A stretch of DNA of 60,650 nt from Ruania rhizosphaerae (GTDB lineage Bacteria > Actinomycetota > Actinomycetes > Actinomycetales > Beutenbergiaceae): NCBI RefSeq assembly GCF_009805705.1, contig NZ_VSMB01000020.1, positions 1-60,650 on the forward strand. Reading direction: 5' to 3'. Both the position numbers and the translations under genes were made by a program. The first letter of the stretch is position 1; each line of letters opens with the position of its first letter. Shown here one piece after another: positions 9,492 through 20,669 of this stretch. Under the pieces are notes generated by a model. That model worked only from the letters and a program-made list of their open reading frames with translations, was not told the DNA's origin and did no database searches.

Positions 9492-10319
9492 ATGGCTACC
9501 GCCCGCACGTACCCCGGCCCTGCCCGCACCGCCCTCATCACCGGCGCCTCCCGCGGGATCGGACGCCACCTCGCCGTCGGTCTCGCCGATGCTGGCCTGG
9601 ACGTCGCCCTCCTCGCCCGGGACTCGGGTCGGCTGCAGGAGGTCGCCCACGAGATCTCCTCCCACGGGCGCAAGGCGCTCGTCCTGACGGCGGACGTCAC
9701 CGATACCGACGCCGTCACCCGGGCGGTGGCCACCGCCGAGCAGGAGCTGGGCTCGGTGGACCTGCTCATCAACAACGCCGGGGTGATCGATGCGGAGGTG
9801 CCGCTCTGGGAGGCCGACCCGCAGGAGGTGCGGCAGGTACTGGACGTCAATGTCTACGGTGCGTTCCTGGTAGCCCGGGCGACGGTGCCGGGGATGCTCC
9901 TGCGCGGCGGGGGCCGGGTGGTTGACCTCAGCTCCGGCGCGGGCGTGCGGGACATGGACGTCATGGCCGGCTACAACATCGCCAAGACTGCGCTCTTCCG
10001 CATCGGCGGCGGGTTGCACGAGGCCGGGTACGAGCGTGGCCTACGCGCCTTCGAGGTGGCACCCGGGGTGGTCGCCACCGAGATGACGGCCGGCATGATC
10101 GCTCACGCGGACCGCACCGACTGGACGCCGCCGGAGGCCGTGACCGCGATCATCCGCGCGATCGCGACCGGCGAGCTGGATCATCTCTCCGGCTGCTACC
10201 TGCGGGCCGGGACCGACACGGTCGAGGATCTACGGGCGCGTGCTGCAGCCGCGACTGACGGGCAGCCCACTGGACGCCGCCTGACTGTCACGGATTGGGA
10301 GAGTCCTCTGGGGCAATGA
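9492..10319 (+). CDS. Short-chain dehydrogenase/reductase
   Basis: A 275-residue classical SDR, NAD(P)-dependent. The cofactor loop is TGASRGIGRHLA (about residues 17-28), NNAGV lies near residue 95, and the catalytic Ser-Tyr-Lys is in DLSSGAG followed by Tyr161-x-x-x-Lys165 (GYNIAK). After the Rossmann core comes a region with PPEAV and GCYLRAGTDTVEDL, as in SDRs that act on small alcohols or sugars; the substrate cannot be told. It stands alone between the pyrophosphatase and the accessory island, and appears to be the last core gene before that island. Confidence 0.88.
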   Translation: MATARTYPGPARTALITGASRGIGRHLAVGLADAGLDVALLARDSGRLQEVAHEISSHGRKALVLTADVTDTDAVTRAVATAEQELGSVDLLINNAGVIDAEVPLWEADPQEVRQVLDVNVYGAFLVARATVPGMLLRGGGRVVDLSSGAGVRDMDVMAGYNIAKTALFRIGGGLHEAGYERGLRAFEVAPGVVATEMTAGMIAHADRTDWTPPEAVTAIIRAIATGELDHLSGCYLRAGTDTVEDLRARAAAATDGQPTGRRLTVTDWESPLGQ

Positions 10320-10377
10320 CCGGTGCGCGCGGCTACTCGCCACCTCTCGTGCCTGGCACCGTCTCGACATGAGCGGT

Positions 10378-11447
10378 TCAGCGGGTGGCCTGGCTCGTGA
10401 CAGGTGTCCACAGCCGGTCGAGGGGCATGACGTGGAGGCGGTCGGCATAGGTGTAGGAGCGAGTCCCGGTGGTGAAGACGACTCCGCCCGCGAACCGTGG
10501 ACCAAGGAGATCGCGCAACTGGGCCAGACCGCGAAAGTCGGAGCCGGGTGCGCGTTCGTTGGCCTTGACCTCGAACGCGAGGACGGTTCCGTCATCGTAC
10601 TCGACCACCACGTCGACCTCGGCGCCATCGCTGGTTCGCCAGTGACCGACGGTCACCGCCTCATCGAGCCAGGACAGTTGCTTGCGGATCTCTCCGACGA
10701 TGAAGGTTTCCAGCAGGTGCCCGAAGTCGGTCAGTGATGCCGGGTCAAGTCCTGCGAGCTTGTCGGGTGTGAGCCGCAGGAGTCGGGCGGCCAGGCCGGA
10801 GTCGACGACGTGGACCTTGGGTTTGGCGCTCACTCGCGAGCGCAGTGTCTTGCCCCAAGCTGGCAGTCGTACGACGAGGAAGAGGTCCTCGAGCAGCCTG
10901 AGGTGACTGTCGGCGGTGGCCCGGCTGACGCCTAGCTTGTCCGCAGTGGCGGAGGTGTTCACGAGTTGCCCGGTCTGCGCAGCGAGCAGGCCCAGCAGGT
11001 CCGTCATTGCTTGTCGTTCACGGATCCGGCTCAGTTCGAGAGCGTCTCGTTCGACCGATGCCCGTACGAAGTCGTCGAACCAGCGCGCTCGAGCCGAGCC
11101 GGAACGCCGCACTGCCAGGGGTAGCCCCGGCGCAGACGCGTTCCACGTAGTCCTGGCGGACGGTCTCGGAGGTCGGGATCTGCCCGACCGCGCCGTCAGG
11201 GTCGGCCCTGAGCGCCTCGAGCAGGTTCTCCCGGACTCCGGCGACCGCCGCCAGGTTCCCGACGACCGCCTCACGCACCTCGACGTCGTCCAGGTCGAGA
11301 ACCGACCCTCGGGGGTCGGCTGCGAATCTACGCAGCACCGTGGATTCACCCACCGAGCGGGCCGTGCAATGCGATCACCGGTTCCACGGCGACCAGATCA
11401 GCCAGGCGCTCGCTGAGTCTGCGTGGCACGAGCGATTCCAGAACCAT
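10378..11447 (-). pseudogene. Degraded AAA ATPase with DUF4143 domain
   Basis: Remains of an ATPase of the AAA_14/DUF4143 type found in accessory regions. The reading starts at ATG 11447 with SLVPRRLSERLADLV and ends at HGP, just before the P-loop. A 2-base loss near 11357 then shifts the frame; GESTVLRRFAADPRG continues in another frame. The segment expected to carry Walker B (IDEYQH type) is absent: the sequence jumps from VVGNLAAV to AGVRENLLEALRADP. A second frameshift near 11121-11131 moves into the intact C-terminal part (ARWFDDFVRASVERDALELSRI to the end), which holds the HTH-like SRATADSHLRLLEDLFLV and the nuclease-fold-like EVDVVVEYDDGTVLAFEVKA. Two frameshifts and a lost catalytic region make it a pseudogene. 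Confidence 0.85.
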
Positions 11448-11808
11448 GGCACGAACTCAGCAGACATGAAGCCCACTACCTAGCAAATGTGAGTCACCGT
11501 ACTGAGCAAACGTGAGCCGTTGAACGAAGCAACTATGCGAGCAGCTCGCCTTGCGACGTGGAGCAGGGGTGCCGACGCGCCAATGGCACGGGGGCAACGC
11601 CGCGTAGGAATACGGAGCCCTGCTCGACATCGACGCGGGTTGAGCGCGACGGTCCGGCTCGTGCGGCATAGCGCTTCCACACGAACAGGCGAGAATCCGG
11701 CCAGGGAATTTGTGGAGGGGTCGGTCGCTCCGGGCCGCCGGATGAGGATCCCCGTTCGGACCGACACGCAGATCAACACATCGTTTGATCGACCTCTACT
11801 GTCGTGTC
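11448..11808. other. Intergenic region at the island's left side
   Basis: No convincing gene. Two near-identical 12-mers AGCAAA(T/C)GTGAG lie at 11482-11493 and 11505-11516, 23 bp apart. The last 60 bases probably hold the promoter of the gene at 11809. Open frames here lack ribosome binding sites and recognisable motifs. Confidence 0.6.
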
Positions 11809-12255
11809 ATGTTGAGCGACTTCCTCATCGGAGCGGGCGCCTCCGCGTTGACGGGCCTCGGCCTGTGGGCCTTCCTGCCGCGAGGAGTCGCGCTCACACG
11901 CCGATACGGAAACGAGCCTGAGACGTGGATTCTCCAAAACATCTCGCCTGTGCCTGTGCGGATAATCTCGGTCGAGTGGCAGGGAGTCGACACGATGACA
12001 GGCGACCGGATCTTGTGGCAAGCGGTCCCCGTCGGTGCGCAACACGACGCTGCCGTGAGGATCGTTCCGGCCGAGGACGACCGCTTCTACGCGCTGACCC
12101 TCGAGCACGAACGGTGGTCTGGCTTCGTAGTGCGGCCAGGCGACAGTCTCCACGCGAGGGTTCTATCGAACCGCACGGTACGGATTCGATACCGCCGGGA
12201 AGGATGGACTGGCCTCTTCGAGCGGCGTGAGATCCGGATCGACGGCGGCACGTGA
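11809..12255 (+). CDS. Membrane-anchored protein of unknown function, coupled to nuclease-like gene
   Basis: A 148-residue protein starting at ATG 11809. A single N-terminal membrane helix (about residues 4-23, FLIGAGASALTGLGLWAF) is followed by a cytoplasmic or outward beta-rich domain (ETWILQNISPVPVRIISVEW; AVRIVPAEDDRFYALTLEHERW; RTVRIRYRREGW). No family is recognised. An upstream TTG at 11785 in the same frame is possible but would put the hydrophobic helix further in. The gene ends in a GTGA overlap with the nuclease-like gene, so the two are co-translated and probably work together. Most likely part of an accessory module. Confidence 0.65.
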   Translation: MLSDFLIGAGASALTGLGLWAFLPRGVALTRRYGNEPETWILQNISPVPVRIISVEWQGVDTMTGDRILWQAVPVGAQHDAAVRIVPAEDDRFYALTLEHERWSGFVVRPGDSLHARVLSNRTVRIRYRREGWTGLFERREIRIDGGT

Positions 12256-13805
12256 GCATCGGCACCAACCGGGATACTCGACACGTGGCCAAGTCTGAGA
12301 AGAAGACCAAGAAGGCGAAGGCGGCCCCAAGGTGGGAAGCCGACCCCGCCGGCGTCTTCTTCAGCGACCGGTTCAACGTCAACCCGGCGGTCCTCGACAA
12401 GTACGGGGCGTTCGACATCTCTGTAGTCTCCGACCTCCCGGTCTTCATCGACCCCTTCTTGCTGTTCAACAGCAGCAACAGGAAGTACGCGGCGCTCCAC
12501 CACCAGATCCTTGACTACCTGCGGTTCTTGCGCGACCAGGCCTCCGACGACCTCGACCCTGGCCTCATCAAGAGCTGGTACACGTTTCGAGAGGTCAGGC
12601 AGAACTGGCTCGGCTTCACCGTCGGTGGCAACGACGGGCGCGGCCTCGGTCCCAAGTTCGCCAAGGCTCTGCACGCGGCGCTCGGCGAGATTCTTAAGAA
12701 CTTCGGCGACGAGACCATCACCAGCTCTAGCCACCTGGAGAAGCTCGCACTCATCCGGCCCGGTGTCGGCCGGGACAGCATCTCCGACTTCGCGACCAAC
12801 CTCATCAAGCACTTCCTGCTCGACTACACCGAGCAGTTCGCGAGGAAGCACTTAGCCGAGAGCGATGTCAAGCAGGTGACGGTCGAGCGCGCCGCGTTCA
12901 ACTACGGCACCGAGACGTGGATGTCCCGCACCTACGCCCTCCCGTGGACCGAGGGTGACTTCGTCATCCTCACCCCGACTGACCTGCTTACCAGGGACGA
13001 GACCTGGATCAACCGCGCCGACATGCTCAGGAGCTTCGACCGCCTGCCCGGCGTCGTCGACAACGACCAACTCCGGGCTGACGTCAACCGGTACTTCAAG
13101 TCCATACTCACTCGAAAGCCCACCCAACTTGAGCGCGACCGTGCCCGCACAGCCACGATCACCGCCTTCCCTGAGCTAATCGACTGCTACATCAAGCTCA
13201 AGGAAGACACTGGCGACCAAGCTGTCGCCACCAGCAAGGAGAAGGTCGGCAGTACCCTGCGCCTGGTGCGGCAGGTGCAAGTCGCTGCACGCGACATCAC
13301 CGATAAGACCGACCTGTTCGAGAAGCCGTGGACGTCCTTCGACGAGGCCCTGGCCGCTGTGCACATCTTCAAGGACTACGTTGAGAACCAGGACGGGTAC
13401 CGGATCATCAACCGCGGCGACGGGAAACCGTTTGCGAGCGAAGCTGAGGTGCAGGCATTCTTCGGCCTCCTGCTCCAGGCCAGCCGGTTCGACGTCAACC
13501 GCGAACCGAACAACGGCCGCGGTCCCGTGGACTTCAAGCTCTCGATGGGCTTGGACAAAAGTCTCATCGAGTTCAAGCTCGCGAAGAGCAGCAGCCTCGA
13601 ACGGAACCTGTCCAACCAGGTCGACATCTACGAGACGGCGAACAAGACGAAGAAATCGGTGTTCGTCGTCATCTGCTACACCGCAGCCGACAAGACCAAG
13701 GTCAACCGCGTCATCAAGAGGCTGAAACTCGACCAGCCCGACGCCCGCCCGCTCGTGGTCGTCGACGCGCGCGCCGGCAACAAGCCGTCCGCCTCCAAGG
13801 CCTGA
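12252..13805 (+). CDS. PD-(D/E)XK nuclease-like protein of unknown family
   Basis: A 517-residue protein. The N-terminal 20-35 residues are Lys-rich. The large middle part has no fold I can name (FSDRFNVNPAVLDKYGAFDIS; VFIDPFLLFNSSNRKY). The C-terminal part carries a PD-(D/E)XK-type pattern: Glu399 in SEAEVQAFF, Asp427 in GPVDFK, Glu440-x-Lys442 in LIEFKLAKSS, then NQVDIYETANK and a beta strand SVFVVICY. I infer a nuclease or nuclease-derived domain. It is coupled by a 4-bp overlap (GTGA) to the membrane-anchored protein upstream, which fits an antiviral effector with a membrane partner, but that role is unproven. A GTG at 12285 is an alternative start. Confidence 0.7.
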   Translation: MSIGTNRDTRHVAKSEKKTKKAKAAPRWEADPAGVFFSDRFNVNPAVLDKYGAFDISVVSDLPVFIDPFLLFNSSNRKYAALHHQILDYLRFLRDQASDDLDPGLIKSWYTFREVRQNWLGFTVGGNDGRGLGPKFAKALHAALGEILKNFGDETITSSSHLEKLALIRPGVGRDSISDFATNLIKHFLLDYTEQFARKHLAESDVKQVTVERAAFNYGTETWMSRTYALPWTEGDFVILTPTDLLTRDETWINRADMLRSFDRLPGVVDNDQLRADVNRYFKSILTRKPTQLERDRARTATITAFPELIDCYIKLKEDTGDQAVATSKEKVGSTLRLVRQVQVAARDITDKTDLFEKPWTSFDEALAAVHIFKDYVENQDGYRIINRGDGKPFASEAEVQAFFGLLLQASRFDVNREPNNGRGPVDFKLSMGLDKSLIEFKLAKSSSLERNLSNQVDIYETANKTKKSVFVVICYTAADKTKVNRVIKRLKLDQPDARPLVVVDARAGNKPSASKA

Positions 13806-14339
13806 CTCCGGACCAATTCTGGCCGCGAGGTTCGAATCACGTTACTGAGTTACCCCGGCCACCCGGCGTCCTGCCCCGATGTAGGGGTGCAGTGCGTCAA
13901 TCTGGGCGGCATGCAGCGGTACTCGCGCCGCATGTGTCATTCCGACCCGCAAGCCGAACCTGCCGGGGCGGAGTCGGCTCAGGTCGGTCAGTGCGTCGGT
14001 CAGGGGATCCCTGAACACTGCCAGCCGTGTCCACCGGCGGCGAGAAGAACGTGGGCTGGTCGATCGACCTACCGGTGCGGGCGTCGCGTATCGAACGCCT
14101 CCTTCCGAGTGCGCTCTTGCTCGGCGCACCGCTTCCGCCGATCTAGCTAGTCGGACCCTCGGGACTGGACCGGCTGAAGTCCGAGCTTGCCAGTACCGTT
14201 GTCCACTGGCAGAGCAACGCACGACGTGTGCGTGTCGATCCTTTGCCACAGACGGCCCCTCGGTACGCTGAACCGAGCGGATTGATGAGTGGCCGCGCTC
14301 ATACCCGCGATACCTGTGTGCGTCCAGCCGGGAGTGCTC
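13806..14339. other. 534-bp gap within the island
   Basis: No confident gene. The minus strand between about 13851 and 14040 reads as a plausible but unrecognised coding fragment ending at 13842 (RRRWTRLAVFRDPLTDALTD; AAQIDALHPYIGAGRRVAG), without a convincing start; it may be the 3' remnant of a deleted gene. The last 100 bases should hold the promoter for the operon starting at 14340. Confidence 0.5.
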
Positions 14340-15290
14340 GTGGCGATATGCGTTGAGGAAGACACGCTAGACGACGTCATGCGCCAAGCTATCGGACAGT
14401 TGCTGGAGGCCGGTGAGAGACCGGACGTGAGTCAAACTCGGGGCGGGAACATCGAATCCCTCGGTGCGCGTCTTCAATTGAACAACCCGAGGGCCCGCCT
14501 GAGCAGAACTGAGTCACGCCGCAAGGTTCCGACCGCGATCGCTGAGCTCGCCTGGTACCTGAGTGGATCTGATAGTGCAGCAGCGATCGCGCCGTGGATC
14601 GGCGTGTACACCCAAGAGGCTGAACCAGACGGACGAGTTCACGGCGCGTACGGGCCCCGACTGTTCGGAGCCGAAAGCGGCGCACAGTTCGAGCGGGTTG
14701 TCCAGATGCTCAGAGAGTCCCCCGGCACGCGACGCGCGGTGATCGCCATCTTCGACCGGAACGACAACTACGGAGACCGCAAGGAGAACGTGCCCTGCAC
14801 GTGCACGCTGCAGTTCCTCTGCCGAAACAATCGTCTGCACATGGTGACGAGCATGCGTTCGAACGATGCGGTGCTCGGGCTCCCACATGACGTGTTCGCG
14901 TTCACGATGTTGCAGGAGGTAGCGGCCCGCGAGCTCGACCTGGACCTCGGCGTGTATATTCACCAAGCAGCGAGCTTTCACCTCTACGACAATCACGTTT
15001 CGATGGCGGAGGCATTCCTCGCCGAAGGTTGGCAAGCAACGACGGAGATGCCACCGATACCCCGGGGCTCACAGGCGGCGTCGCTAGGGGGCTTGGTGGC
15101 GGCCGAGCAGCAGATCCGCGAGGGGGTGCGGTTCGAGATGTTGACCATGCCGGCTGAGCCGTACTGGGCTGATCTTGTGCGTATCCTTGCCTGGGAGACG
15201 GCACGTAAGGAGCGCGACATTGCAGCAATGCAAGCGATAGCTGTCACCCTTGTAAACGACGAACTGAGGGAGTTCGCACTGCTAACCTAA
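14340..15290 (+). CDS. Thymidylate synthase-family enzyme, probably acting on dCMP
   Basis: A 316-residue protein of the thymidylate synthase / deoxynucleotide hydroxymethylase fold. Key parts: RGGNIESLGARLQLNNPRA near the N-terminus; VHGAYGPRLFG; the nucleophile region NVPCTCTLQF with Cys153; the phosphate-binding R173-S in MRSND; GLPHD; and FHLYDNH near residue 224. In thymidylate synthase the base-reading residue after GLPF is Asn; here the matching residue is Asp184 (GLPHD), as in dCMP hydroxymethylase. That suggests a cytosine nucleotide substrate and methylation or hydroxymethylation at C5. The nucleophile is followed by Thr rather than His. GTG 14340 follows GGGAG (14330-14334); the frame extends up to GTG 14289. 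It is the first gene of a three-gene operon, 23 bp before the next. Confidence 0.82.
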   Translation: MAICVEEDTLDDVMRQAIGQLLEAGERPDVSQTRGGNIESLGARLQLNNPRARLSRTESRRKVPTAIAELAWYLSGSDSAAAIAPWIGVYTQEAEPDGRVHGAYGPRLFGAESGAQFERVVQMLRESPGTRRAVIAIFDRNDNYGDRKENVPCTCTLQFLCRNNRLHMVTSMRSNDAVLGLPHDVFAFTMLQEVAARELDLDLGVYIHQAASFHLYDNHVSMAEAFLAEGWQATTEMPPIPRGSQAASLGGLVAAEQQIREGVRFEMLTMPAEPYWADLVRILAWETARKERDIAAMQAIAVTLVNDELREFALLT

Positions 15291-15313
15291 CGCATGCCGC
15301 CCATGCTCTTAGA

Positions 15314-16192
15314 GTGAGAACTGAAATTCATCCTGTCAACCTCGACCCGAATAGGCACCCGCCGATGTATTCGTCTATGGCCCGCTTGCTCGAGCTGCTC
15401 GTCACGCAGACTCGCGAATCCACGGTGATCAGCTGGGCTGGTCCCGTGCCGTTTTTTGGCGATTTAAGTTCGGCCAAGGTAGCCACAGTGGGCATCAACC
15501 CGAGCAATCTTGAGTTCGTGACGAATGATGGCGTAGAATTGGACCAAGAAGCACGGCGACTCCACACGTTAAGATCATTGGGAATCTCGAGTTGGGATGC
15601 AGCCGACGGCACTCATGTTCGTGCGCTAGTCCGGACGTGCGAGAGGTATTTCACTCGCAATCCTTATCGACGATGGTTCGATGTGCTTGAGCGATCGATG
15701 GCTCCGTCAGGTTACTCATACTACCCCCTTGGTGAGCGTCGCATGTGTCACCTGGACCTTGTGCCGTTCGCCACGTCAGAAAAGTGGGCCTACTTGCCTC
15801 CGGCAAACAGACGTGCACTCGTCGATCAGGGACGGGAGGCGATGGCGGAGTTGATTCGCGACTCGCCTCTGGAGTTCCTAATACTGAACGGCCGCTCGGT
15901 CGTCACCGAGTTCGAGACATTCGCTGGGGTTCGTCTGGATGCGCACCTGAGGGACGACTGGTCGCTGCCGCGACGCGACGGCAGCCAGGTCGAAGGTATG
16001 CTGTACACAGGTCAGATCGACAGGCTCGGCTCAATCGAGTTCGAACGGTCCGTACAGGTGATCGGATACAATCATAATTTGCAAAGCAGTTTCGGTGTGA
16101 CGTCGACTGCGATGCGAGCTATCGGCGAATATGTGGGTGATCAAATTGCCAGTGCGACCAATAGTAAGGCCTGCAGACCGACCCCTGTATGA
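15314..16192 (+). CDS. Unknown protein with weak uracil-DNA-glycosylase-like motifs
   Basis: A 292-residue protein starting at GTG 15314. The strand-loop VATVGINPSNLEF (Gly60-Ile-Asn-Pro-Ser64), a polar CHLDLVPFAT segment (His146, Asp148), LEFLILNGRSVV, and a late VIGYNHNLQSS motif (Gly251, His254) are arranged like the motifs of the uracil-DNA-glycosylase superfamily, but the match is weak and from memory. The region has clearly lower GC than its neighbours (runs such as TTTTTT and ATCATAATTT), a sign of transfer. It lies between the thymidylate-synthase-like gene and the aGPT-Pplase-like gene and overlaps the latter by 40-60 bp, so it is co-translated with it. A role in recognising or processing a modified base is inferred from context only. 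Confidence 0.6.
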   Translation: MRTEIHPVNLDPNRHPPMYSSMARLLELLVTQTRESTVISWAGPVPFFGDLSSAKVATVGINPSNLEFVTNDGVELDQEARRLHTLRSLGISSWDAADGTHVRALVRTCERYFTRNPYRRWFDVLERSMAPSGYSYYPLGERRMCHLDLVPFATSEKWAYLPPANRRALVDQGREAMAELIRDSPLEFLILNGRSVVTEFETFAGVRLDAHLRDDWSLPRRDGSQVEGMLYTGQIDRLGSIEFERSVQVIGYNHNLQSSFGVTSTAMRAIGEYVGDQIASATNSKACRPTPV

Positions 16193-17096
16193 AAAAATAC
16201 TGGCCGTCTTGGAGACGTTCGATCCTTCGATCGAGGCGCTCCCAGGTATCGCAGATCGGGATTCCCGAGAGTGCCTGACGGCGCAGTTGATCGAGAGCAT
16301 GAGGCGCCGGCGATTCGTAGTCGAATACTTGCGCAGCGCCAAACTCAGCGACTCGTGCCTAGTCCCCGCGACCGGAAAGTTCGACCCGATCCGTGGTGCA
16401 ATCCTAAAGTCCAGGGACGGCGAACTCGACGAGGCGTGCTGGCTGGTTTTCCTGTCGGTCCAGTTCGGCTACCATCGTAAACGCGGTTGGGATCTTGTGT
16501 CAGCATTCTATGGCCGCGATGGCGGGACCAAGCTGTGGACTTGGGAAGAGGCGAGTAGAGATCTGCCTGGCGTTCGCGCATGGCTGGATGCGAACCGAGC
16601 GCAACTCAGCGCATCGGGACTCGCGTTCGGCAACCACCGCAAGTACGAGAGCCTGTCTGGATCCTCGGGACCGGGCACCGGTTCGGTAGTCTCCAGCTAC
16701 GTCGGCTGGGTCGCGTCGGCTGGCCATGCCGGGGGCAGGCCTGAGGCGGTGTCAGCAGCCAACGGCGAAGAACAGTTCCGGCTCGTGTTCAAGGCCATGA
16801 AGAAGGTCCATCGGTTCGGTCGGATTGCGCGGTTCGACTATTTGACGATGCTTGGCAAGACGGGCGTGTTCCCGGCTCTGGTGCCGGACTCAACGTACTT
16901 AGCGAACGTGAGCGGGCCAAGGGCGGGGGCTTCCCTATTGCTGGATGGCGGCTTGAAATCGCAACACAGTCCGCGTCAACTCGAGAGACGACTGGTCCCG
17001 ATCCGTGAGGCGATTAATGTAACGAACGATGTGTTGGAGGATGCTCTCTGCAACTGGCAGAAGAGCCCTACTGCGTTCGTGCCTTTTCGAGGGTAG
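16131..17096 (+). CDS. Alpha-glutamyl/putrescinyl thymine pyrophosphorylase clade 3-like protein
   Basis: A protein of up to 321 residues. I recognise the pattern of the aGPT-Pplase clade 3 family: LPGIADRDSRECLTAQLIES near residue 38, CWLVFLSVQFGYHRKRGWDL, the hallmark FGNHRKYESL (about residue 166), FGRIARFDYLTMLG, and the C-terminal DALCNWQKSP. The family name comes from enzymes predicted in phages that carry alpha-putrescinyl- or glutamyl-thymine; clade 3 members in bacteria have, to my knowledge, no tested function. The start is uncertain: ATG 16131, GTG 16137 or GTG 16152 all lie inside the preceding gene, and none has a strong ribosome binding site, so coupling is likely. The 3' end overlaps the convergent XRE-ImmA gene by 29 bp. 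Confidence 0.8.
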   Translation: MWVIKLPVRPIVRPADRPLYEKILAVLETFDPSIEALPGIADRDSRECLTAQLIESMRRRRFVVEYLRSAKLSDSCLVPATGKFDPIRGAILKSRDGELDEACWLVFLSVQFGYHRKRGWDLVSAFYGRDGGTKLWTWEEASRDLPGVRAWLDANRAQLSASGLAFGNHRKYESLSGSSGPGTGSVVSSYVGWVASAGHAGGRPEAVSAANGEEQFRLVFKAMKKVHRFGRIARFDYLTMLGKTGVFPALVPDSTYLANVSGPRAGASLLLDGGLKSQHSPRQLERRLVPIREAINVTNDVLEDALCNWQKSPTAFVPFRG

Positions 17097-18162
17097 TGCC
17101 GTTCCAAGCGAACCATCGTTTCAGGCTGTTGTGCTCATTCCTGCCCAAGATTCCGCTGTTCTGAAGTTGCCCCACCACGATACCAGGTGAGATCCCGGCG
17201 ATCTGAGCGATTTTAATGATTTGGCGGTAAGACTGGGGCCGCGAGTCAAGGTCCGCTCCGCCGAGTAGTAGATGGGCGACGAGCCGATTCGCTTCGTACT
17301 CTAAATGGTTATCCTGGGTAGCGTCCTCGGCGTCGTCGGAATCGATGAACGGCCCGGTGAGGTCGTGCATCAGCGCATGCGCCGCCTCGTGGTAAAAGGT
17401 GAACCAGAAATGGTCGTCCGATAGGTGGCGCGCACTCAGTGAGATGAGCGGGGCTCCCTTGTACAGCCGAGTAGCTCCACTTGCGGTGCATCCCTTTGGC
17501 GTGCGGACTACCACGAGTCGAACGCCAGCGGAGGCGCAGGCTTCGACAAGTGCTGGCACAAATCTGGTCGGGTTTGACTGTCGGGTCAAAGCCCGGACTT
17601 CAGTTAGTGCCCGCTCGAAGCCTTTTGGTGTGAATGCGCTTTGGATAGTTACTCGGTTGGCTTGGAGCTCACAGGCTCTAAACCACACGGCTGTCGCGTT
17701 GGTCTGGTGTTCGTGTGCACGCGAGGTTCGGAAGAGGGCGTTGTCAACTTGGGCAGCGTAGGTGGCGTCCCATTCTGCGACGGTGTGGACGTCGAAGTAG
17801 TCCAGGCAGGCTGCTATACGTTGCTTCCAGGTCGTGGGCTGGGCGATCCAGCCCCATTCAGACATCTGCTTGAGTGGGAGCGCCCTGGACCAGGCATCCG
17901 CATGTACGCGATCGAGGTCATCGCGGTATTGAGCTTCTCGGGTGAGCCAGAAAGCGGCGGTTGCGCCAAGGTGATCCGAAAGTGCACGTGCCGTCGAGAG
18001 ATTGATGCCCAAGTCGCCAGAAAGTAAGCGTTCGAAGTCTAACGTCGTGAGGCCGGTTGCGTCGGCGACACGTTTGGGCGTTAAATGACGGTCACGCATT
18101 ACAGCCTGGATTGTTTCGCCAGGTGGGGAAGCCCACCGTGTCGAAATTCCACCATTGCTCAT
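17068..18162 (-). CDS. XRE-family regulator fused to ImmA/IrrE metallopeptidase (antitoxin type)
   Basis: A 364-residue two-domain protein. The N-terminal helix-turn-helix is of HigA type (LTPKRVADATGLTTLDFERLLSG; ALSDHLGATAAFWLTREAQY, residues about 25-80). The C-terminal ImmA/IrrE-like zinc peptidase has the HExxH motif His258-Glu-Ala-Ala-His262 in FYHEAAHALMH, with LEYEANRLVAHLLL downstream supplying the third ligand region. The start overlaps the stop of the upstream HigB-like toxin gene by 4 bp (ATGA). This domain pair is known from toxin-antitoxin loci and from SOS/phage regulators. It is convergent with and overlaps the aGPT-Pplase-like gene, so the two operons sit tail to tail. Confidence 0.85.
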   Translation of the reverse strand: MSNGGISTRWASPPGETIQAVMRDRHLTPKRVADATGLTTLDFERLLSGDLGINLSTARALSDHLGATAAFWLTREAQYRDDLDRVHADAWSRALPLKQMSEWGWIAQPTTWKQRIAACLDYFDVHTVAEWDATYAAQVDNALFRTSRAHEHQTNATAVWFRACELQANRVTIQSAFTPKGFERALTEVRALTRQSNPTRFVPALVEACASAGVRLVVVRTPKGCTASGATRLYKGAPLISLSARHLSDDHFWFTFYHEAAHALMHDLTGPFIDSDDAEDATQDNHLEYEANRLVAHLLLGGADLDSRPQSYRQIIKIAQIAGISPGIVVGQLQNSGILGRNEHNSLKRWFAWNGTTLEKARTQ

Positions 18163-18482
18163 GACGGCCTTCCAATCTGAGTCAGGCGAATTCGACGGAC
18201 CTGTGGCCAGTCGACGCTGCCGGTGTCGGTGATTCGTGGCCGTTTATGGTTCGACTCGAACGTCATGACGACTTCATCGGCGAGTTCAACTTCGAGCAAG
18301 TCGCACTCCTGTCCCCTTCGCGTCGTTCGACCGACGGGCATGTCGTCGATGCAGTCGACGGCTCGGAGGTCCGCGAGCCGGAGTCGTAGGACGCCTGCGA
18401 CGTCCTCGCCCAGCTGCGACGTGGCGACATCGGGGTCCTCACATATCGTCCGAAGCTCCTCGGTTTCAAAGGAAAGTATCAT
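18159..18482 (-). CDS. HigB-like RelE/ParE-superfamily toxin
   Basis: A 107-residue protein of the HigB-like (killer protein) branch of the RelE/ParE superfamily: MILSFETEELRTICEDP, then LRLRLADLRAVDCIDDMPVG, LLEVELADEVVMTFESNHKRP and the C-terminal VDWPQVRRIRLTQIG. Such toxins cleave mRNA on the ribosome. ATG 18482 is preferred over the upstream in-frame start at 18551, because the family begins with this strand and AGGA lies 10 bases upstream. Coupled by ATGA overlap to the XRE-ImmA gene, giving the toxin-first order of higBA operons. Confidence 0.75.
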   Translation of the reverse strand: MILSFETEELRTICEDPDVATSQLGEDVAGVLRLRLADLRAVDCIDDMPVGRTTRRGQECDLLEVELADEVVMTFESNHKRPRITDTGSVDWPQVRRIRLTQIGRPS

Positions 18483-18581
18483 CGGGTCGCCGTCCTGAAC
18501 TTGGTCCAGTCTCAAACCTACCCTCTCTGGTGGAGCAGACGAACGCGGCACGCGGTGTGCTTCTCCTTCCGCTAGCGCGGA

Positions 18582-18860
18582 TCACCGACCCGGCTCGCCC
18601 GGGTGCGGCGATGCCCCGTCCAGACGTCCCCCGGCGTAGACGACGAGGTCTGAGACGGTCACGAGGCTCTTGATGTCTTCATCGGGAATAGGAATCGACA
18701 GACGGTCTTCAATCGCCACCACGATCTCTGCGATGGCAAGCGAGTCGAGATCGAGGTCGTCGGTCAAAGACTTGCTGAGCGCGAGATCTTCAAGGGGGAT
18801 GCCTGTCACATCATTGATCACGTTGCGCAGGGCTGCGAGTACCTCTTCGTTGGTCGCCAC
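18582..18860 (-). CDS. Acyl carrier protein, orphan
   Basis: A 92-residue acyl carrier protein. The phosphopantetheine attachment site is Ser40 in DDLDLDSLAIAEIVVAIED, followed by IPIPDEDIKSLVTVSDLVVY, which is close to the AcpP pattern. GTG 18860 is preceded by GGAAGGAGACC. A longer frame to 18905 has no ribosome binding site. In Actinobacteria the main acpP normally lies with fabD, fabH and fabF; here it stands alone, next to the accessory island. It could be a second ACP for another pathway or the housekeeping one relocated; the sequence alone does not decide. The extra C-terminal tail (ASPHPGEPGR) is unusual. Confidence 0.85.
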   Translation of the reverse strand: MATNEEVLAALRNVINDVTGIPLEDLALSKSLTDDLDLDSLAIAEIVVAIEDRLSIPIPDEDIKSLVTVSDLVVYAGGRLDGASPHPGEPGR

Positions 18861-19259
18861 CCTGTGGTCTCCTTCCAATGTGCCGCCCCTGGGACGGCGG
18901 TGCACCGAGTGCCACGTTTGCGCCCGGACTCACCGCCACCTTACGGGCCGCGCGACGAGTGAGCCTACGCTTGTGGTGCGAATGACCTCAACGCGGAACC
19001 GTCCGCGCGGAAATTGGGGGTCCTCGTCTGCTCACGTCATCCTGGTGGAATACAGCGATCGCACCCCACGCTGGCTGAACCGTCCCGTAAGCCGAACCAC
19101 AACCGGCAAAATCCCGGGCCAGAAGGTCATGCAGACCCGACCACCCGGCTGACGTCCCGTAGCGGCCGTCCGGGCTTCATTACCGGGACCGGGAGGTCTT
19201 CTGACATCCGGACATGACAGCCCCGAACCCGCCACCAGACGTGGCCGAGCGACCCGGCT
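18861..19259. other. 399-bp gap between ACP and MFS genes
   Basis: Holds the ACP ribosome binding site and promoter at its left end. The rest has no recognisable gene; short frames on both strands lack motifs and ribosome binding sites. It separates the ACP start from the stop of the MFS gene, both on the minus strand. Confidence 0.55.
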
Positions 19260-20669
19260 TCAGGAGTCGCTGGTCGGCCCGCTCGGCCGACCCGTCTCGT
19301 GCGGTTCGGCGTCCACTGCAGCCTCGCCCAACGCCGACTCCGCGTGATCGTGCGGCTTCACGGGCCACAGCAACCCCAGCCCGACCACCAGCACCAACAC
19401 GATCCCGAGGATGCCCCAGTACTGGGCCTCGTCGGACGTCGCGGCGTCCGTGGTGGCGATTCCGACCGAGATCGCCACCGAGAACATCGCGGGGGCCAGG
19501 AAGCTCACGGCCCGCCCGGTGGTCGCGTACAGGCCGAACACCTCGCCCTCCCGCCCGGCAGGGATGAGCCGGGCGAGGAACGTACGCGAGGCCGACTGCG
19601 CGGGCCCGACGAAAGCAGCCAGGACCAGGCCGCACGTCCAGAACACGGTACGGCCGCCGTCGTGCAGGAAGAAGATCAACAGGCCCATGACCACCATCGA
19701 GATCAGGGCGGCCATGATCACCCGCTTCGGGCCGATCGCATCGTCTAGCCGGCCTGCGAGGATCGTGGCGATCCCGGCGACGACGTTCGCGACCACGCCG
19801 AAGATGATCACGTCGCCGGGGGAGAAGCCGAACACGCCGGCGGCGATCACCCCGCCGAAGGTGAACACCCCGGCGAGCCCGTCGCGGAAGACCGCGGAGG
19901 CGAGCAGGAAGTAGACCGTGTTGTGGTCGCGGTTCCACAGGTCGACCACCGTGCGCCACAGCAGTTTGTAGGAGCCGATGAGCCCGACCCGGGCCGTCGT
20001 CGGATCGCTGCGCCGCCGCCGGTCTCGCACCGTCAGCAGCACCGGGATGGAGAACGCCAGCGTCCACACCGCGCACAGCAGCATGCTGATCCGCACGTCG
20101 AGACCGTCCTCGGCGGTCACCCCGAACAGGCCGACGTCGGGCTCGATGAAGCCGAGGTAAACCACCAGTAGCAGTACGATCCCGCCCAGATACCCCATAC
20201 CCCAGCCCAGGCCGGAGACGCGGCCCACGTTCCGGGGCGTGGAGACATCGGCGAGCATCGCGTTGTAGTTCACGCCGGCGAACTCGAACGCGATGTTCCC
20301 GCCCGCGAGGAGCGCCAACCCCAGCCACAGGTACTCGGGGGCGGGCAGCACGAAGAACAAGCCCGCCGACGCAAGGATCACCAGGACCGTGTTGACCGCC
20401 AGCCACAGCGTGCGACGCCCCGCCCGGTCCGCCCGCTGACCCGTGACGGGGGCGAACAGCGCAATCAGGAACCCCGCGCCTGCGAGCACCCAGCCGAGTG
20501 TGCGCTCGGCCTCCGGGCCGAACGGGTCGGAGGTGAGATACACGGTGAACACGAAGGTGGTGATCACCGCGTTGAAAGCTGCCGACCCCCAGTCCCACAA
20601 CGACCAGGCGATCACCGGCCAGGTGAGGGTCCGATCCTTCGATGCCCACGGCAGAGGCGTGCTCGTCAT
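19260..20669 (-). CDS. MFS transporter, UMF1 (Atg22-like) family
   Basis: A 469-residue integral membrane protein with about 12 hydrophobic helices. The start MTSTPLPWASKDRTLTWPVIAWSLWDWGSAAFNAVI is characteristic of the UMF1/Atg22-like family (the WSLWDWGSAAFNAVI box). The RADRAGRRTLWL loop between helices 2 and 3 is the MFS signature. ATG 20669 is chosen because the family begins here; the open frame extends to 20843 but that stretch encodes intergenic repeats. Substrate unknown. Divergent from the methyltransferase gene, sharing a 230-bp intergenic region that holds four copies of a 20-bp element. Confidence 0.85.
   Translation of the reverse strand: MTSTPLPWASKDRTLTWPVIAWSLWDWGSAAFNAVITTFVFTVYLTSDPFGPEAERTLGWVLAGAGFLIALFAPVTGQRADRAGRRTLWLAVNTVLVILASAGLFFVLPAPEYLWLGLALLAGGNIAFEFAGVNYNAMLADVSTPRNVGRVSGLGWGMGYLGGIVLLLVVYLGFIEPDVGLFGVTAEDGLDVRISMLLCAVWTLAFSIPVLLTVRDRRRRSDPTTARVGLIGSYKLLWRTVVDLWNRDHNTVYFLLASAVFRDGLAGVFTFGGVIAAGVFGFSPGDVIIFGVVANVVAGIATILAGRLDDAIGPKRVIMAALISMVVMGLLIFFLHDGGRTVFWTCGLVLAAFVGPAQSASRTFLARLIPAGREGEVFGLYATTGRAVSFLAPAMFSVAISVGIATTDAATSDEAQYWGILGIVLVLVVGLGLLWPVKPHDHAESALGEAAVDAEPHETGRPSGPTSDS

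Follow-up and report, generated by a model that had tools for sequence, protein, structure and literature searches.

What is an operon made of a thymidylate synthase (TS)-family gene, a gene with uracil-DNA glycosylase (UDG)-like motifs and an aGPT-Pplase clade 3-like gene doing in a bacterial chromosome? The question is raised by a 60,650-nt stretch of Ruania rhizosphaerae DNA (NZ_VSMB01000020.1, positions 1-60,650, forward strand), here called the window, in which a preliminary description placed these three genes at 14340-17096 as a set that may build, read or recycle a modified base. That extent is too short. The unit consists of five genes, because two convergent genes at 17068-18482 belong to it, and bacteria of at least eight phyla retain the set. 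On balance, we favor the reading that it forms one mobile, probably anti-phage system, in which a module for a C5-modified deoxycytidine (module 1: TS, UDG-like and aGPT genes) is coupled to a toxin-antitoxin-like pair of the PD-lambda-2 type (module 2). The features of the locus are as follows.

14340-15290, + strand: TS-family enzyme, predicted deoxycytidine monophosphate (dCMP) 5-hydroxymethylase (or dCMP methylase); PF00303, its active site sharing Arg, Ser, Asp and Thr with T4 gp42
15314-16192, + strand: UDG-superfamily protein, an optional member of the set; AlphaFold and Foldseek, invariant Asn62 in GxNPS
16131-17096, + strand: member of aGPT-Pplase clade 3, a predicted transferase whose target would be a 5-(hydroxy)methyl pyrimidine; PF18746, PF18724
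17068-18162, - strand: HigA-type helix-turn-helix (HTH) domain fused to an ImmA/IrrE metallopeptidase, PD-lambda-2_B-like; PF06114, PADLOC PD-Lambda-2_B
18159-18482, - strand: small RelE/HigB-like protein; homologue annotation and conserved position at 75/80 genome loci
11751-19093, no strand: low-GC insert carrying the system, bounded by comparison with the genome G017

The three genes of module 1 lie on the + strand, with a gap of 23 nt between the TS-like gene (alternative start, GTG at 14289) and the UDG-like gene, and an overlap of 62 nt between the latter and the aGPT gene; the gap and the single strand had been described correctly, and the overlap had been put at 40-60 nt. The 3' end of the HTH-ImmA gene overlaps the convergent aGPT gene by 29 nt, and the gene for the small protein, whose ATG at 18482 was picked by comparison with relatives, overlaps the HTH-ImmA gene start by 4 nt. 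The GC fraction is 0.592 over 14340-18482 and 0.609 over 11751-19093, against 0.693 in the remainder of the window, which agrees with the low GC reported earlier; 155 other overlapping 7.3-kb segments range from 0.674 to 0.718.

Enzyme families and the predicted base

The TS-like protein matches PF00303 in Pfam (E=1.9e-24, 86.7 bits against a cut-off of 24.3). A second gene of this genome, at C6, is ThyA-like (411.6 bits to PF00303), and the TS-like gene of the set is therefore distinct from the housekeeping thymidylate synthase. Active-site residues were compared in 87 proteins, drawn from 79 genome loci, 7 plasmids and the window. The catalytic Cys is present in all of them. The position of Asn177 (E. 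coli ThyA numbering) is occupied by Asp in 86/87, the exception (L032) being a broken open reading frame (ORF), and the position of His147 by Thr in 87/87, as in T4 gp42; the ThyA of the same genome keeps Asn (177) and His (147). The columns of Lys133 and Ala176 of MilA hold Arg in 85 proteins (Lys in the other 2) and Ser in all 87. The family therefore fits neither ThyA (Asn177 with His147) nor the MilA type (Lys133 with Ala176), and has the residues of a T4-CH-type dCMP hydroxymethylase, with Asp at 177 and Ser and Arg in the deoxyribose pocket; T4 gp42 is identical to it at the discriminating columns (Cys, Arg, Ser, Asp, Thr). Asp186 is common to the cytosine-using MilA, BcmA and T4 CH, whereas Asn takes its place in thymidylate synthase and the SPO1 dUMP enzyme; Lys133 with Ala176 confers ribose preference, and deoxy-preferring enzymes carry Arg and Ser (PMC5175136). 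In a metagenome study, no two positions distinguished modified contigs from the rest better than 147 and 177, and the modified ones carry Asp at 177 (PMC8670742). Because the active-site residues are of the cytosine type, the predicted substrate is dCMP and the predicted product a hydroxymethyl or methyl derivative.

Among the PDB matches listed for the TS-like alignment, the top relative is the CMP 5-hydroxymethylase MilA (8.5e-71), and the best entry named thymidylate synthase reaches 9e-27. Unlike T4 gp42, the enzyme is bacterial and longer; no T4 entry is named among the best 60 of its 126 PDB matches, and the beta-glucosyltransferase that adjoins gp42 in T4 has no recognized counterpart at this set.

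Since the active site is of the dCMP and not the dUMP type, the base made by module 1 is probably a cytosine derivative. The earlier suggestion that one enzyme makes a C5-modified pyrimidine survives as a working idea, whereas its link to putrescinyl- or glutamyl-thymine was dropped as the leading one on the strength of these residues. Phage thymine cassettes are nonetheless the closest analogy in gene content: those of ViI, M6, phiW-14 and PaMx11 presumably join a TS-family gene to a gene for an aGPT or amino-acid:DNA transferase, as here, and we take PaMx11 to carry hypermodified T, partly from the title of PDB entry 8z2m ('gp46/PUGT'). The bacterial set departs from these cassettes at several points. 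PaMx11 gp51, annotated thymidylate synthase and the one such enzyme compared, has Asn at the discriminating position; neither the aGPT nor the UDG-like protein has a match in 50,697 phage records (tblastn, 0.01), in which the TS-like protein has 3223 matches, all below 60% identity; and the set shows a toxin-antitoxin-like pair and no recurrent kinase.

For the middle protein, none of Pfam, PADLOC, PHROGs and NCBIfam gave a match at E<=1. Its AlphaFold model (pLDDT 90.8) was compared with the PDB by Foldseek, the kind of structure comparison proposed earlier, and the best 50 of 543 rows (E<=10) are all UDG-superfamily entries, which among the matches listed belong to SMUG1, family 4 UDG or similar, TDG and UdgX. 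The best E is 4.1e-5, and the TM-scores are modest (0.31-0.43 by query length). By the fold of its model, the protein belongs to the UDG superfamily, and base excision is a predicted activity. In an alignment of 37 rows, GxNPS does not vary, and the residues of an NHNxQSS stretch are either invariant or conserved above 90%; the invariant Asn of GxNPS presumably resembles the catalytic Asn of TDG and SMUG1. In the genome G136, a homologue occurs alone, with none of the other four genes within 14 kb. A second UDG-like protein with an LNPGE-type motif, recognized by eye (L166:725-1567, - strand), lies ~5 kb from a stand-alone homologue of the middle protein.

The third protein matches PF18746 (E=1.1e-80, 271.5 bits against a cut-off of 25) and PF18724 ADDT (2.1e-53) in Pfam, so that all three gene families are those named in the preliminary description. 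Its conserved C-terminal stretch, ED..CNWQK.P, is invariant except for the Gln (>90%). The aGPT profile has no match at E<=1 in the PDB, and its structure model (pLDDT 93) has no significant PDB match by Foldseek. In our judgement, two weak matches are meaningful by TM-score, the phage glycinyltransferase 8z2m (E=3.2, TM 0.37/0.40) and the helix-hairpin-helix (HhH)-type glycosylase 7olb (E=3.9, TM 0.32/0.38); a fold like that of the HhH glycosylases is only hinted at by the model. An hhalign comparison with PaMx11 gp46 covers 15 columns at a probability of 2.5%.

Recurrence of the five genes and their joint inheritance

The aGPT alignment was searched against one genome per species (84,980 species), and 200 relatives were confirmed. 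The best 80 were analyzed, a sample that leans toward closer relatives, and their loci were scored with hidden Markov models of the five proteins. The aGPT gene is present at all 80 loci, TS at 79 (missing in L071), HTH-ImmA at 78 (L050 and L082 stop at a contig end) and the RelE-like gene at 75; the four together, which we regard as the core, are found at 74/80. The UDG-like gene, previously treated as a fixed part of a three-gene set, is optional: it occurs at 37/80 loci, in 35 of them between TS and aGPT. The three genes nevertheless do co-occur in other genomes, as the preliminary description required.

Gene order is equally conserved. HTH-ImmA is convergent with aGPT and less than 200 nt from its stop in 73 of the 77 scorable loci. 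We take the four others to be a gene in two ORF pieces (L016), inserted genes (L028 and L070) and a pair on the + strand further downstream (L067). The RelE-like gene lies on the HTH-ImmA strand in 75/75. Because the same order recurs in tens of distant genomes, the arrangement is above chance. At one of the 80 loci, TS and aGPT are joined in a single ORF of 640 aa (L057:5445-7364), possibly by a sequencing error.

The arrangement extends to mobile DNA. A tblastn search with the aGPT protein found 8 records among 72,556 plasmids, and each of the 7 inspected has TS directly upstream and HTH-ImmA convergent downstream, with a RelE-like match in 5 and a UDG-like match in 1; on the Leptospira plasmid, the UDG-like gene is inserted between TS and aGPT. 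The aGPT gene of that plasmid is annotated as two coding sequences and is possibly broken (L007:5980-6913). IMG/VR yielded 26 loci on 25 contigs, with TS at 25, HTH-ImmA at 25, RelE-like at 23 and UDG-like at 4 of the 26. Two of these loci (L148 and L150) lie near both ends of one 118-kb viral contig, IMGVR_UViG_3300025711_000239, perhaps through terminal redundancy of the assembly. Closer to home, PF18746 is found in 0/23 other genomes of the family and in 7/396 genomes of the phylum including R. rhizosphaerae itself, strongly in that genome and in G248 alone.

The HTH-ImmA protein matches PF06114 in Pfam (1.2e-10) and, in PADLOC, PD-Lambda-2_B (5.4e-26), the Xre-peptidase model, which is matched by all 31 family members scanned; the HExxH motif is retained in the family. 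Against the PDB, its profile matches HigA antitoxins over the N-terminus; the matches at the C-terminus, to CapP (0.0046) and to an IrrE orthologue (0.0074), are weak. The small protein is harder to place. Among 41 members, there is no credible Pfam match (two single-member matches to unrelated families, 0.003-0.008) and no PD-lambda-2, HigB or RelE model in PADLOC (three single-member matches to unrelated models, 0.01-0.035); the PDB gave no credible match, with one at 0.058, and hhalign against one HigB-type protein a weak 24.5%. Where the pair lacks module 1, homologues of the small protein carry the annotation RelE/ParE toxin or 'killer suppression protein', and we name it RelE/HigB-like from these annotations and a likeness seen by eye.

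PD-lambda-2 of E. coli is composed of a HigB-like A, an Xre-peptidase B and C, and its B protein is toxic and rescued by A (PMC9519451). The likeness to it lies in the PD-Lambda-2_B match and in a RelE/HigB-like gene directly upstream of HTH-ImmA on the same strand; the difference is the convergent TS/(UDG)/aGPT module.

The pair also occurs without module 1. An HTH-ImmA match at 1e-10 is present in 11/296 phylum genomes; in 9 of the 11, the DNA examined contains neither TS nor aGPT, and a RelE-like match lies beside HTH-ImmA in 8 of those 9. HTH-ImmA matched 25 plasmid records, of which 8 are the aGPT plasmids already described; of the 17 that remain, 3 were inspected, and each carries the pair without TS or aGPT. 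By eye, such pairs adjoin HerA/Mre11-type genes in L110, a CD-NTase-like gene with a SLATT-like one in L116 and a RES/Xre pair in L113.

Sequence distances among the five proteins co-vary, also between proteins encoded on opposite strands. In Mantel tests with 2000 permutations, from which nine loci with broken, truncated or short matches had been dropped, r was 0.60 for TS-aGPT (n=78), 0.69 for aGPT-HTH-ImmA (78), 0.63 for TS-HTH-ImmA (77), 0.57 for aGPT-RelE-like (75) and 0.63 for HTH-ImmA-RelE-like (75); for the UDG-like protein, it was 0.68 with TS (32), 0.63 with aGPT (33) and 0.72 with HTH-ImmA (32). No pair reached its observed r in any of the 2000 permutations. In a quick-search HTH-ImmA tree of 91 rows (truncated L016 and L076 omitted, L115 not included), a branch with SH-aLRT support of 99 separates the 84 aGPT-linked proteins from the 7 without module 1, one of which (L116) sits on a very long branch. 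Presence of the UDG-like gene takes 12 changes on this tree.

Insertion site, mobility and neighbors

Comparison within the genus places the locus in a variable insertion site at window positions of about 10237-19325. The flanks match G019 and G020 up to ~10.23 kb and from ~19.33 kb, and in these two genomes the matches are 138 and 103 bp apart, without the longer stretch that includes the insert. G017 matches up to 11750 and from 19094, with its own 11.2-kb stretch in between, encoding KAP NTPase, AbiTii and SEC-C proteins at the same site. The insert of R. rhizosphaerae also encodes, at 12252-13805 (+ strand), a 517-aa protein that matches PHROGs 30194 and 27295 and the PADLOC candidate PDC-M36A and is without a match in the other genomes of the genus (7 searched); it is a separate defense candidate.

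The preliminary description saw no phage structural or packaging genes around the three genes and took them for a stand-alone bacterial system; elsewhere, however, the set is carried by plasmids, by a phage-plasmid and by IMG/VR contigs, and it is mobile. A copy on a Pantoea plasmid that we take to be P1-like sits amid phage-type genes annotated head processing protein and ddrA; its neighbors match, in PHROGs, endolysin, a DdrA-like anti-restriction protein and a protein released from phage upon infection, and an adjoining gene is annotated restriction endonuclease. Around the genome loci, 113 of the 155 nearest ORFs were scanned, the remainder being mostly short. Integrase-like and recombinase-like clusters, named by eye, occur in 9 and 5 loci, and among the 113 ORFs Pfam recognizes two as Phage_integrase and one as Resolvase. 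PADLOC matches among the neighbors (25 of 188 families listed) include type III and type II methylases, SIR2, a type I restriction endonuclease, SduA, SoFic and PD-T4-6. NUDIX genes adjoin 5/80 loci, 4 upstream of TS and 1 beyond the pair, and the best NCBIfam model for 4 of the 5 is a pyrimidine (deoxy)NTP diphosphatase, in each case below cut-off. A DUF4031 gene adjoins TS or the UDG-like gene in 8 loci (L027, L039, L045, L054, L063, L064, L066 and L070), and its product is a possible sixth member of the set.

A proposed coupled defense system and its rivals

The reading of the set as one defense system is carried by its enzyme families, active-site residues, conserved anatomy, co-inheritance and mobility, and it can be set out stepwise. 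First, the TS-like enzyme would convert dCMP to 5-hydroxymethyl-dCMP (or 5-methyl-dCMP). Second, the aGPT protein would attach a group to the C5 carbon or exchange it. Third, the UDG-like protein, where present, would bind the resulting base in DNA or excise it. Module 2 would act as a toxin-antitoxin-like switch, bringing the cell to arrest on sensing either infection or an altered state of module 1. A more specific version, which we hold tentatively, is a new class of immunity in which a cellular pathway to hypermodified cytosine, built of the dCMP hydroxymethylase and the aGPT transferase with or without a glycosylase as reader, would supply the host with a rare deoxycytidine derivative and serve as the sensing or arming branch of the switch, and an infection-linked change in the derivative would release the HTH-ImmA/RelE-like pair.

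Joint action of the five genes in defense would be in line with PD-lambda-2, with glycosylase-based defense and with a predicted aGPT-Pplase system. The last comes from DefensePredictor (2026), which predicted such a system to be defensive with its domain uncharacterized, and in which TS and 5hmU-kinase domains were newly validated in defense; the legend of its Fig. 6 also lists HTH and UDG, a likeness at the level of text, and the passages used here give no test of aGPT (PMC13092281). The preliminary statement that no described system with this gene set was known has to be divided accordingly: no published account of this gene set or its mechanism is among the literature matches listed, in a search that covered papers outside subscription, whereas an aGPT-Pplase defense had already been predicted. 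Anti-phage defense, one of the roles proposed at the outset, stands as the candidate role, given the mobile elements and the PD-lambda-2-type partner.

Several points weigh against this reading. The reactions, their order, the aGPT substrate (nucleotide or DNA), the trigger and defense itself are what we infer. The main gap is a kinase. Phages M6, ViI and phiW-14 use a 5hmdU DNA kinase to phosphorylate 5hmdU in DNA ahead of later modification (PMC6449724), and no kinase-like cluster is seen among neighbor clusters of at least 3 loci, as named by eye; for this reason, we propose that a host kinase may serve, or that the aGPT protein acts on unactivated 5-hydroxymethylcytosine (5hmC) or on another substrate. 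The two promoters share no operator in 72 loci, where the best 18-nt match averages 13.5/18 against 13.45 in GC-matched swaps; cross-regulation is unsupported, and repression of the TS operon by HTH-ImmA through a shared operator was set aside. Since pairs exist without module 1, the pair can work alone. TS is absent from L071, and the RelE-like gene is missing from 2 of the 7 plasmid loci and from five genome loci, of which L036, L050, L076 and L082 are at contig ends and L052 is not. The HTH-ImmA proteins group by phylum on their tree (12 label changes against a shuffled mean of 31.5), and the co-variation of distances may reflect shared mobility or shared host descent alike. Finally, the defense-type neighbors have no background rate for comparison.

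The alternative that survives best, although we consider it doubtful, is restriction by a poisoned nucleotide or marked DNA: the modified deoxycytidine would enter new phage DNA and be excised by the UDG-like protein, with the pair as a back-up or addiction part. A precedent is Brig1, a UDG-superfamily protein that defends against phage DNA with modified C by excising alpha-glucosyl-hmC as the effector (PMC11078745), and the NudG-like NUDIX neighbors could clean the host pool. The likeness to Brig1 is at superfamily level, and Brig1 immunity comes from a single gene (PMC11078745). Excision by the UDG-like protein cannot be the general mechanism, because its gene is missing from 43/80 loci and its presence changes 12 times on the tree, and the NUDIX genes stand at just 5/80.

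Somewhat more doubtful still is self-marking, in which module 1 would modify C in the DNA of its own element or host, much as restriction-modification systems set an identity mark, and the pair would kill cells that lose the mark. Plasmids and islands are fitting places for such addiction, and a toxin-antitoxin-like pair suits it, to judge from PD-lambda-2 (PMC9519451); against it, the neighbor clusters of at least 3 loci, named by eye, include no methylase, nuclease, kinase or polymerase. It is unlikely that two unrelated units, a nucleotide-metabolism operon and an independent toxin-antitoxin pair, share one mobile insert by circumstance. The stand-alone pairs, and the facing operons with no common operator, are what such a reading would predict, but both modules are kept at 74/80 loci, the linked HTH-ImmA proteins fall on one side of a branch with support of 99, and the distances co-vary. 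A secondary-metabolite or salvage operon yielding free 5-hydroxymethylcytosine compounds, as at the start of the mildiomycin/bacimethrin pathway, is very improbable despite MilA being the closest solved relative of the TS-like enzyme (8.5e-71), in view of the change of the MilA CMP-preference residues Lys133 and Ala176 to Arg (85/87) and Ser (87/87) and of the lack of any biosynthetic cluster recurring among neighbors in at least 3 loci.

DNA hypermodification is known chiefly as a phage shield. Here, enzyme families of that shield are kept by bacteria, in 74/80 loci beside a toxin-antitoxin-like pair, and aGPT-Pplase clade 3, hitherto little beyond a name, gains a defined set of partners and a predicted base, C and not T. 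Should the five genes work jointly, a modified cytosine would be produced by bacteria and their mobile elements to serve ends of their own, with a direct link from base chemistry to abortive infection. The recurrence of this arrangement across phyla suggests an unstudied way to fight viruses.

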